A stretch of DNA of 64,000 nt from Hyphomicrobiales bacterium. GTDB taxonomy: Bacteria > Pseudomonadota > Alphaproteobacteria > Rhizobiales > Rhizobiaceae. Made by a program: the position numbers and the translations under genes. This document shows positions 6,895 through 9,780 of the stretch, in pieces. The number at the start of each line of letters is the position of its first letter. Positions within the stretch are counted from its first letter, which is position 1. The stretch covers positions 62,001 through 126,000 of the forward strand of contig UCNE01000008.1 in NCBI GenBank assembly GCA_900473685.1, in the 5' to 3' direction. The notes beneath the pieces are model-generated. The model made no database searches. It had not been told where the DNA came from and saw only the letters and a program-made list of their open reading frames with translations.

Positions 6895-7305
6895 ATGGCA
6901 CTCGGCCGTACCCTTACGCTCGCCCGCAAAGGCGCGGGCGCCGGTTTTGATCTTGTCTGCATCACCGAGCAGCGATCCCTCGAAATCAACAACGAAGAGA
7001 TCGATATCACCAAGCCCAACTGCATGGATCCGGGTAGCAAGCTCACCCTTGCCCTGATGTATGGAACGCAGTCCATCCGCTTTACCGGGCAGGGGGCATT
7101 CGTTTCGAATGCCACGATGAAGCTGGTTTCGACCGATGCGATCAATCAGGTCATCCATGATTACCAGGTGACCGTGCCGGGTGTCGGAACATTCGAAGGT
7201 GACATGCTGATCAGCATGACCTTCTCCGGCGACAAGACGAACGAGCTTCAGGCGGACATCCGCTGCGCCATGACCGGCGACATCGTCTTCGTGGCGGCCG
7301 CTTGA
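6895..7305 (+). CDS. major tail tube protein (gpV-like, Phage_tail_2 type)
   Basis: The 136-residue protein has the signature of the TP901-1/gpV-like tail-tube family. It starts with a glycine-containing arm, followed by SLEINNEEIDITKPNCMDPG and LMYGTQSIRFTGQGAFVSNA. A central YQVTVPGVGTFEGDMLISMT strand pair follows, and it ends with ELQADIRCAMTGDIVFVAA. It polymerises into the tube through which DNA is ejected. A clear AAAGGA ribosome-binding site precedes the ATG. The stop overlaps the next start (TGATG), coupling it to the assembly chaperone. Confidence 0.85.
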   Translation: MALGRTLTLARKGAGAGFDLVCITEQRSLEINNEEIDITKPNCMDPGSKLTLALMYGTQSIRFTGQGAFVSNATMKLVSTDAINQVIHDYQVTVPGVGTFEGDMLISMTFSGDKTNELQADIRCAMTGDIVFVAAA

Positions 7306-7712
7306 TGAGCACGCTTCCTGCAAACCCTCTGCGCGGCGAAGCTGATGTCCGGATCGGCGCCGTTGATTTCCGGATCGCCGTTACCTTTGCCGGTCTTGCG
7401 CGCCTTTCCCAGGCGCTCGGGACGCAAACGCTCGACGAACTGTTCGTGCGGTTACTGGGCTTCGAACCGAAAGCGGTTCTTTGCGCAATCCGGTGCCTCA
7501 CGGTCGCTGACGATGACGATCAGGTCTCAGCTTTGTCCGCCAAGATATTGGGCGAGGATAACATCTCGATTGCAGATCAGGTCAGTTGGAGAAACGCCGT
7601 AAGCCTGGCGCTGCAAACCCACGTTGAGGCGGGCAATCGTTTAAGGGATCAACGATCCGGTTTTGAAATGGCAGAAGCTGCCGTCTTGGGAAACCCCGCA
7701 AGCCTCTCCTGA
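7305..7712 (+). CDS. tail assembly chaperone, upstream partner (GTA gp10-like, 'G' protein)
   Basis: The ATG at 7305 overlaps the tail-tube stop and gives 135 residues. GEADVRIGAVDFRIAVTFAG followed by LARLSQALGTQTLDELFVRL matches GTA-TIM/gp10-like tail proteins, which sit between tube and tape-measure genes and chaperone the tape measure during tail assembly. Near its end the gene carries the heptamer G GGA AAC at 7688-7694, in the correct zero-frame phase for -1 slippage into the frame of the next gene. This is the same arrangement as lambda G and GT. See the separate entry for the predicted fusion. Confidence 0.8.
   Translation: MSTLPANPLRGEADVRIGAVDFRIAVTFAGLARLSQALGTQTLDELFVRLLGFEPKAVLCAIRCLTVADDDDQVSALSAKILGEDNISIADQVSWRNAVSLALQTHVEAGNRLRDQRSGFEMAEAAVLGNPASLS
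7688..7694 (+). promoter_or_regulatory. predicted -1 ribosomal frameshift site, GGGAAAC
   Basis: The heptamer fits X-XXY-YYZ (G GGA AAC) in the phase of the upstream chaperone gene, whose zero-frame codons are TTG GGA AAC CCC. Slipping back one base gives GGG AAA and continues in the frame of the 7730-7972 gene, which is open across the whole overlap with no stop. Lambda uses GGGAAAG at the same genetic position. The fusion would hold about 130 residues of the upstream protein plus about 92 of the second frame (about 222 in all). Slippage itself has not been observed. Confidence 0.8.
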
Positions 7713-7729
7713 TCTCCATCCATCTCAAG

Positions 7730-7972
7730 ATGCTCTTTCGCATCGCTGTTTCACCAGAACGTCTGGCCTGGTCGCCTGAGACGTTCTGGAGTGCGACGGG
7801 CGCAGAGTTTGAGATGGCTATGGAGGGGCTTGCCGGAGACTACAAGGCCGCACCGTTCATATCTCGTGAGGAAATCCGCCGTCTGGCGGTTGCGCACGGC
7901 ACCAAGCCCTCGCTTCGAACCAACCCAAATGCCGTGTCGCTCAGTGCGCCACAAGAAAGGGCACCTGCATGA
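7730..7972 (+). CDS. tail assembly chaperone, downstream partner (Phage_TAC_6-like, 'T' domain)
   Basis: Read alone from the ATG at 7730 this gives 80 residues. LAWSPETFWSATGAEFEMAM matches the short Phage_TAC_6/GTA rcc01693-type chaperones, which contain a conserved Pro-x-x-x-Trp segment before a helix. The frame continues upstream without a stop past the slippery site at 7688, so the protein is probably made as the C-terminal part of a -1 frameshift fusion, like lambda T. There is no strong ribosome-binding site before the ATG at 7730, which supports this. The stop overlaps the tape-measure start by four bases. Confidence 0.75.
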   Translation: MLFRIAVSPERLAWSPETFWSATGAEFEMAMEGLAGDYKAAPFISREEIRRLAVAHGTKPSLRTNPNAVSLSAPQERAPA

Positions 7973-9780
7973 CCCGTCCCGATATTCCCGTCACCATTAG
8001 CGGCGATCCAAAGGGCTTCGAAAGTGCACTCGCGCGCATCCGCGCCAAGACGGGAACGACGGCAAACGATATCGTCAATTCGTTTCTGGCAATCAAATCG
8101 AAGATCGGTGGGATTGGTGGCTTTCTGGCCGCTGCGGGTGTGACAGCGGCGGTCAGCGCGGTGCACGAGGCCGCAGGGGCAATTGCCGAAGTTGGGGCGG
8201 CTGCTCGCCGCGCTGGCGTGGATGTGAAATCGTTTCAGGAACTGAAGTTCGTTGCCGAACAGAACAAAATCGGTGTGGACGCACTCACTGATGGCTTGAA
8301 AGAACTGTCGCTTAGGGCCGACGAGTTCATAGTAACTGGCGGTGGCGCGGCTGCGGAGTCCTTTCTGCGTCTTGGTCTGAATGCCCAAATGCTAAAAGAG
8401 AAATTGAAAGACCCGTCTGCCCTTTTTACCGAAATCATCGGCAAACTTGGTGACCTCGATAAGGCGGCCCAGATCCGAGTTCTTGACGAGATCTTTGGTG
8501 GTGCCGGCGGCGAGCAGTTCCTTCAGCTGATCAGGCTCGGCGAGAAGGGCATCCAGGACCTCATTCAAGCGGCCCACAAACTTGGTCTCGTCTTCGATGA
8601 GGATATGATCAAGAAGGCCGACGATATCGACAAGAAGTTTAACGTGATAACCAATGTGATCGGTACGAACCTAAAAGGCGCTATCGTTGGGGCTGCCTCG
8701 GCACTGATCGGTTTTCTAGATCATTTGAATGCCATTGAAGAGCGTATGGGCGCGATCGGCAACAGTGATTTTTTCAAATCCTTGTCGAATGGGTTAGGCG
8801 TTGACACAAGCAAAGTCTATCGCGTTGTCCCTGGGAAGGGGATCGTCGCAGAAGATCCGAGTGAGCCGGGCGCAAAACCTGTTTCGCCGGCCCAATCAAC
8901 GCCTACAACAGCTCGCGTTCCCAGTGCCATCGATATTCTTCGGGGCAAGCTCATTGATGGTAAGGTTGCGGCCGCGTTCGAGACCAATTCTCCGTCACCT
9001 TCATCGTCATCGTCGCGGGGTTCCGGAGCAAAATCCGCCAAGGAAGAAGAAGCTGCCTATATTGGCGTCATCAAGACGCTGAAGGAAGAGCTAGAGCTGA
9101 TCGGAAAGTCCGATGTCGAGCGCGAGAAGATGACGGCATTGCGGGAAGCCGGGGTAGCTGCCTCTTCGAAAGAAGGACAGGAAATCGAAAAGCTCATTGA
9201 GCTGAAGCATCGCCAGACGGCTGCGGAAGACGAGCTACAGGCGAAGCGTGAAGAGGCGCAACAGGTGGCCGAAGACTTCGGTGCCACGCTCGATGATCAG
9301 CTGGGCCGGATTGTCGATGGAACGTTCGAGGCGAGGGATGCGGTGGCGGCGCTGGTGAACGAACTCATCAATGCGAGCACCGGCGGTAAGGGGCTCTTCG
9401 GAAGCCTGTTTGGCGCGCTTACTTCCGGTGGCGGCCTGGGGAGCCCTAAAGTAGCTTCGGCCGCATCTCCCGGTAATGTTCTTGGCTATGGTGGCCCGCG
9501 TGCAGCCGGGGGGAATGTGTCGCCGGGCCGCATCTACCAGATCAACGAAAAGGAACAGGAACTGTTCATGCCCGGCGTGCAGGGCAGTATCATTGCTCCC
9601 AGCAAATTACGGGATGGTTCAGCCAACGCGTCGGGGCCGGAGCTCTCCGTTATCCAGATTTCACTTTCGCCAGAACTGAAGGCTGCGATCCTTCAGGAGG
9701 CGCAGAGCCAGTCCATCGAAGTCGTACAGAAAAACAACGCCGCGCAGGAAAACTTCCGGAAGAATGGCGGGACGATCTGA
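7969..9780 (+). CDS. tail tape measure protein
   Basis: The 603-residue protein follows the tail chaperones, the position of lambda H. It has a hydrophobic GGIGGFLAAAGVTAAVSAVHEA region near residues 45-70, long helical stretches with Lys/Glu heptads in the C-terminal half (AAEDELQAKREEAQQVAEDF), and a Gly-rich C-terminus (GKGLFGSLFGALTSGGGLG). It ends in the typical tape-measure segment ASPGNVLGYGG and GRIYQINEKEQELFMPG. It sets tail length and is ejected with the DNA. Its short length predicts a short tail. Confidence 0.9.
   Translation: MTRPDIPVTISGDPKGFESALARIRAKTGTTANDIVNSFLAIKSKIGGIGGFLAAAGVTAAVSAVHEAAGAIAEVGAAARRAGVDVKSFQELKFVAEQNKIGVDALTDGLKELSLRADEFIVTGGGAAAESFLRLGLNAQMLKEKLKDPSALFTEIIGKLGDLDKAAQIRVLDEIFGGAGGEQFLQLIRLGEKGIQDLIQAAHKLGLVFDEDMIKKADDIDKKFNVITNVIGTNLKGAIVGAASALIGFLDHLNAIEERMGAIGNSDFFKSLSNGLGVDTSKVYRVVPGKGIVAEDPSEPGAKPVSPAQSTPTTARVPSAIDILRGKLIDGKVAAAFETNSPSPSSSSSRGSGAKSAKEEEAAYIGVIKTLKEELELIGKSDVEREKMTALREAGVAASSKEGQEIEKLIELKHRQTAAEDELQAKREEAQQVAEDFGATLDDQLGRIVDGTFEARDAVAALVNELINASTGGKGLFGSLFGALTSGGGLGSPKVASAASPGNVLGYGGPRAAGGNVSPGRIYQINEKEQELFMPGVQGSIIAPSKLRDGSANASGPELSVIQISLSPELKAAILQEAQSQSIEVVQKNNAAQENFRKNGGTI

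Follow-up and report, generated by a model that had tools for sequence, protein, structure and literature searches.

A predicted −1 frameshift in the tail assembly chaperone genes of a rhizobial prophage, and its likely counterpart in gene transfer agents

The stretch of DNA analysed here, the window, is 64 kb of a 5.5 Mb genome, and its positions 1 to about 14,700 carry phage head and tail genes. These include genes for a portal protein (PF05136), a major capsid protein (PF03864), a tail-tip protein (PF09327), a distal tail protein (PHROG match) and a DUF6950/NlpC-P60-like protein, assigned from Pfam with a P60 score slightly below its cut-off. On the forward strand at 6895–7305, in the place of lambda gpV, lies the gene for the major tail tube protein (PF06199 Phage_tail_2, 30.5 bits against a cut-off of 23.8; phrog_1407, major tail protein). 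It is followed on the same strand by a gpG-like first tail assembly chaperone of 135 amino acids at 7305–7712, a member of a conserved family (phrog_13724, 190.5 bits, residues 5–136), by a gpT-like second chaperone domain at 7694–7972, and by the tape measure protein gene at 7969–9780 (phrog_10574, tail length tape measure protein, 606.5 bits). By these PHROG and Pfam matches the chaperone pair sits between the tail-tube and tape-measure genes, which is the place of G and T in lambda.

The ATG of the first chaperone at 7305 overlaps the tail-tube stop as TGATG; the ORF listing begins this gene at TTG 7302, and ATG 7305 is the likelier real start. At the other end, the tape measure start at 7969 overlaps the stop of the second chaperone frame as ATGA and has a Shine–Dalgarno-like match. 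The first chaperone had no Pfam match up to an E value of 0.1. The second domain, 92 residues and a stop, is recognised by PF09550 Phage_TAC_6 at 24.7 bits, barely above the cut-off of 23.4, as well as by phrog_21156 and by alignment with relatives; the second domains of three relatives tested score 31.2–36.4 bits with Phage_TAC_6. Both phrog_13724 and phrog_21156 are PHROGs annotated as function unknown.

The two reading frames overlap at the heptamer GGGAAAC (forward strand, 7688–7694). A preliminary description of this DNA had placed the heptamer in the exact zero-frame phase for −1 slippage, with the −1 frame open through the gene listed at 7730–7972, and both statements hold. The zero-frame codons are TTG GGA AAC (7686–7694), giving the X_XXY_YYZ phase (G_GGA_AAC), while the −1 frame reads GGG AAA CCC CGC and onwards to TGA 7970–7972 with no stop between. 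From the first G of the heptamer to the zero-frame stop TGA (forward strand, 7710–7712), where the short product ends, is 22 nt. On the 5′ side of the heptamer the open −1 frame covers only 21 nt, and these contain no start codon. The start of the second gene in the ORF listing is the ATG at 7730–7732 on the forward strand, which is only partly conserved in relatives. The predicted products are a short form of 135 amino acids and a fusion of 130 + 92 = 222 amino acids.

On the evidence of its sequence, the locus is almost certainly a tail assembly chaperone frameshift of a siphophage-type prophage, of the gpG/gpGT class. Most ribosomes would read 7305–7712 to give the short chaperone. In a minority, tRNA-Gly on GGA and tRNA-Asn on AAC would slip one base back onto GGG AAA, and these ribosomes would pass TGA 7710 in the −1 frame and go on to 7972, producing the fusion. 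If the pair works as gpG and gpGT do in lambda, the short form would coat the tape measure protein, with the second domain of the fusion recruiting tail-tube subunits, so that the ratio of short form to fusion would matter. The heptamer, its phase, the open frames, the gene order, the conservation, the codon bias and the missing separate start in some relatives are observed; from them we infer slippage itself, its rate and the roles of the chaperones.

The likeness to phage lambda extends, in the available descriptions of that phage, to the gene order, the −1 direction, slippage shortly before the first gene ends and the second domain being made as a fusion. The parallel drawn in the preliminary description thus agrees in gene order, phase and heptamer class. 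The two differ in the heptamer itself, which is GGGAAAG in lambda and GGGAAAC in the window, and in the Pfam family of the window's second domain, PF09550.

An AlphaFold model of the first chaperone has a mean pLDDT of 80.2; its last helix ends at residue 128, with low confidence beyond. The slip codons are residues 129–130, past this last helix, and the model thus suggests that the fusion would be joined via a loose tail. No match with E below 0.2 was found for the first-chaperone model in the PDB. Against a viral library it gave only weak matches, some of them named tail assembly chaperone, the best of those having an E value of 0.057. The model of the second domain has a pTM of 0.44.

Conservation was examined at the level of the family by a protein search of 394 genomes, of which 30 matched in 36 places; with phage phi2LM21 this gives 37 loci, the window included. 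In 34 of the 37 there is an in-phase heptamer whose second triplet is of A or T, and the −1 frame passes the zero-frame stop. The three loci lacking this arrangement are L014, in which GGGAAAC is present but the ORF is apparently disrupted upstream, L030, a GTA-type (gene transfer agent) pair by PF11836, and L032, which is similar to L030 in sequence. In the distant loci L015–L028 and L036–L038, GGGAAAC lies 25–49 nt before the stop in 14 of 17; L015 and L036 have GGGAAAA at 70 nt and L019 has AAAAAAA at 10 nt before the stop. L029 has AAAAAAA only, 103 nt before the stop. A −1 frame stop lies immediately 5′ of the heptamer in L022, L037 and L038, so a −1 shift must there occur at this point or later. 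At the level of the order, an alignment search of 397 genomes had matches in 11; with the two already known set aside, nine new loci remained. In four of these the −1 frame continues from a canonical in-phase heptamer (L041 and L042, GGGAAAC; L043, AAAAAAG; L046, CCCTTTC), and in five it does not (L044, L045 and L047–L049).

Closer relatives were collected by scanning viral contigs and genomes. Scans with the single first protein found no relatives in either, whereas scans by alignment did, giving the best 80 of 101 loci in viral contigs and 19 in genomes, 99 loci in all. Because the scan patterns derive from the interior of the first protein, on the 5′ side of the heptamer, the loci were not selected by the heptamer. 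The genomes named among the matches are Rhizobium, Sinorhizobium/Ensifer, Neorhizobium, Martelella, Pseudochrobactrum, Brucella gallinifaecis and one titled Bacillus subtilis. The chaperones of this last record (L175, JAHREI010000002.1, titled Bacillus subtilis SK6B4) align with the Pseudochrobactrum loci, and the record is probably mislabelled. Part of the 99 repeat family-level loci, and 85 of the 99 are distinct; these and all counts drawn from them below are limited, for the viral set, to the best 80 of 101.

A canonical in-phase heptamer with an open −1 frame is kept in 79 of the 85 distinct loci (viral set, best 80 of 101), and the distance from heptamer to stop is 22 nt in 78 of the 79 and 25 nt in L178. 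The heptamers comprise GGGAAAG (59), AAAAAAG (9), GGGAAAC (7), AAAAAAA (3) and GGGAAAT (1), the site switching between GGGAAA and AAAAAA types with the slippery pattern retained. Six of the 85 (viral set, best 80 of 101) have no canonical call. L130 (IMGVR_UViG_640753051_000002) has GTGAAAG, which creates a zero-frame stop at the slip site, and is possibly a dead or differently expressed copy. In the place of the heptamer L135 has GGGGAAG, and L140 and L147 have GGGGGAG; here the run of G may still let the P-site tRNA-Gly slip, and A-site pairing departs from the classic pattern. The sequence of L146 diverges, and in L157 the heptamer is present with the frame disrupted upstream. Conservation across relatives had been proposed as a check in the preliminary description, and loss of the heptamer and overlap in close relatives as what would speak against a frameshift. 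Such loss was looked for, and the outcome did not refute the programmed −1 frameshift proposed to join the chaperones, a reading backed by phase, gene order and conservation alike.

Whether chance or plain coding constraint accounts for the heptamer was assessed on 84 loci, namely the 85 distinct ones (viral set, best 80 of 101) minus L130, L146 and L157, plus L002 and the window; they fall into 21 clusters, with identity below 85% between clusters. At the slip glycine 69 of 72 loci use GGA, a codon that accounts for 65 of the 715 glycine codons elsewhere in the same genes, and the other 12 of the 84 loci have lysine in place of this glycine. Because the loci are related to one another, such counts are not independent events. 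By clusters, an in-phase heptamer occurs in the last 75 nt in 19 of 21, where synonymous recoding gives an expectation of 1.7 (viral set, best 80 of 101). Heptamers in the three phases number 1, 2 and 19 in the last 75 nt of the 21 clusters, and 2, 1 and 3 in the rest of the gene (counted over the 21 and 16 distant loci). Among all 23 distant family-level loci, which form 19 clusters, a heptamer lies in the last 75 nt in 15 clusters against 1.8 expected; the four clusters without one are L014, L029, L030 and L032. Across 17 clusters, variation by codon position has the three-base periodicity of the zero frame as far as the heptamer, with 1.64 bits at the third position, and beyond the stop it has that of the −1 frame, with 1.25 bits at the third position.

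The heptamer and its 22 nt spacing are kept far above chance even in clusters having an ATG, which argues against the second chaperone being a separate protein made from ATG 7730 by re-initiation after TGA 7710, with the heptamer incidental. Such a reading is very improbable. It draws on the position of this ATG, which starts 18 nt past the zero-frame stop, and on a scan of the −1 frame that began 60 nt upstream of the heptamer and ended 12 codons short of the FW motif. An ATG or TTG lies near the second-gene start in 12 of 21 clusters, the window's cluster included; by loci, a start codon lies between heptamer and domain in 16 of 84 (viral set, best 80 of 101), and the −1 frame ATG that the window retains at 7730 is also found in several relatives. 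The same scan leaves 9 of 21 clusters with no ATG, GTG or TTG in this place, and 68 of 84 relatives (viral set, best 80 of 101; rarer start codons uncounted), a count by loci dominated by one large Sinorhizobium-like group. The preliminary description had added that the second gene lacks a good ribosome-binding site. ATG 7730 indeed shows no Shine–Dalgarno-type match, but as evidence this is weak, ATG 7305 having none either.

A change of frame by slippage of RNA polymerase, rather than of ribosomes, is less probable still, to the point of being nearly negligible. The AAAAAAG or AAAAAAA runs of some relatives could in principle slip during transcription, yet the window and most relatives have runs of just three G and three A, which are short for transcriptional slippage, and the features conserved are the codon phase and the X_XXY_YYZ pattern.

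In the window, no well-folding structure was found in the 70 nt 3′ of the heptamer (z −0.33). A stable hairpin begins at about 7754, some 60 nt downstream of the heptamer, and this distance is too far for a usual frameshift stimulator. Relatives with AAAAAAG or AAAAAAA sites have a possible hairpin a few nt past the heptamer (L155:2364–2434, z −3.45). In 12 sequences of that hairpin, one pair was changed on both sides against a shuffled mean of 0.9, and RNAalifold gave 9 pairs with no double change. As a conserved downstream stimulator, then, nothing lies close in the window, and the hairpin of the A-rich sites remains a candidate that covariation does not support.

The kind of system described here, even GGGAAAC in an alphaproteobacterial siphophage, is already published, and the window site is an ordinary, well-conserved case of the known class of tail-chaperone frameshifts. 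In the accessible parts of the literature, the lambda gpG:gpGT frameshift is given as 30:1, G_GGA_AAG as highly shift-prone in E. coli, and G_GGA_AAC as the site of haloarchaeal HCTV-1 (PMC5009743). Mutants of TP901-1 that lose either chaperone part form no tails, and permanent fusion yields non-infectious particles, according to the portions available of PMC4493119. Prior work also includes PRFect (PMC10885494) and, to the extent that their texts are accessible, reports on Rhodobacter capsulatus phages (PMC8601537) and phage Adele (PMC12846349). Among Caulobacter phages, the available text of PMC3556154 gives AAAAAAC for phiCbK and GGGAAAC for Colossus. Both are siphophages of Alphaproteobacteria in whose sequence a chaperone frameshift was recognised, and Colossus shares the heptamer of the window; their likeness to the window is one of frameshift arrangement.

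Among described systems close to this one, Sinorhizobium prophage phi2LM21 is the single annotated phage relative found. Its p42 and p43 (MF614627) share 63.8% and 58.4% protein identity with the window over the two parts, and GGGAAAG lies 22 nt before the stop. In contrast to the arrangement predicted here, the deposited record gives them as two separate CDS, with the second beginning at CTG and no fusion named; the suspicion in the preliminary description that published annotation would miss the fusion is true of this phage. In the parts of its paper that are available, p43 alone is named a chaperone, the word ‘frameshift’ is absent from the main text, and induction with mitomycin C is reported to have failed. 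No description of a chaperone frameshift in a rhizobial prophage was found in the open-access literature searched.

The second domain of the window also links it to gene transfer agents (GTAs), since the chaperones of RcGTA-type GTAs likewise have a PF09550 second domain. They differ from the window in their first protein, which is PF11836 Phage_TAC_11 in the two tested whereas that of the window has no PF11836 match, and in their heptamer, which is CCCTTTN, GGGAAAG or absent. Searches with PF09550 covered 289 genomes of the class, with matches in 37, and 96 genomes of another order, with matches in 34; the best 30 of 38 and best 30 of 34 places, two of them shared, gave 58 loci. An in-phase heptamer whose zero frame carries an RG[E/A/I] motif is present in 35 of these 58 (best 30 of 38 and 30 of 34), as CCCTTTN in 32 and GGGAAAG in 3. 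In the CCCTTTN loci (L052, L053, L055, L056, L063, L067, L074, L179–L191, L193, L194 and L196–L205), most of which come from a single order, the one searched in 96 genomes, the heptamer lies at the start of the TAC_6 domain, and ATG, GTG and TTG are absent nearby in 30 of the 32 (best 30 of 38 and 30 of 34). A start codon lies within 90 nt of the domain in 5 of the 35 loci with a heptamer against 18 of the 23 without, and five loci have neither (best 30 of 38 and 30 of 34); for this alternation Fisher's test gives p 1.4e-6 with kinship ignored.

CCCTTTN encodes Pro-Phe at the domain start, and coding could therefore mimic conservation of a heptamer. A P-F-x-W motif is found at the domain start in 39 of 88 loci. 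The first two codons of this motif are CCC TTT in all 29 loci that retain the overlap with the first gene; where no overlap was detected, 2 of 10 loci have these codons, one of the two (L204) being counted as heptamer-bearing; elsewhere, phenylalanine is TTT in 38 of 135 codons. The order-level locus L046 has CCCTTTC at 22 nt from the stop, in a place that precedes the domain start and is separate from it. Two regions were confirmed as RcGTA-type clusters: L208, around L063, with GTA_megatron, TIGR02217, TIGR02218 and an RcGTA_tape match below cut-off, and L209, around L183, with GTA_megatron and TIGR02217. The ORFs chosen in a third region, L207, were not GTA genes, and some of the remaining PF09550 loci may be prophages. 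The window's own genome carries a second chaperone pair of GTA type (L066, G000:C33:391711-394881; PF11836 and PF09550), with no canonical heptamer and two TTG codons upstream.

These patterns make it probable that domesticated RcGTA-type GTAs, too, form their chaperone fusion through a −1 frameshift, which in many Alphaproteobacteria would take place at C_CCT_TTN, a heptamer unlike that of the phages; that lineages without the heptamer use a separate start codon for the second chaperone instead; and that two ways of setting the ratio thus alternate within a single gene family. No GTA chaperone frameshift was found in the available portions of the open-access papers PMC8601537, PMC10299305, PMC10721106, PMC9022992, PMC8718954, PMC3556154, PMC3610622 and PMC12846349, and the word ‘frameshift’ is absent from the main texts of PMC7296036 and PMC6821227. 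In the accessible text of PMC10299305, gpGT and gpG of Wolbachia phage WO are named and discussed beside a possible GTA, and a +1 frameshift is proposed in a hydrolase; this case is not that of an RcGTA-type chaperone. What might surprise a specialist here is the GTA observation.

For the window, the finding corrects the annotation, since what is listed as two genes is very probably a single gene with two products. Within Rhizobium-family prophages, phrog_13724 and phrog_21156 can be given names as the two parts of a gpG/gpGT-type pair. If the reading of the GTA loci is true, a DNA-transfer machine kept by its host still uses ribosomal frameshifting to build its tail, and the alternation between versions with a slip site and versions with a start of their own would be a natural experiment.
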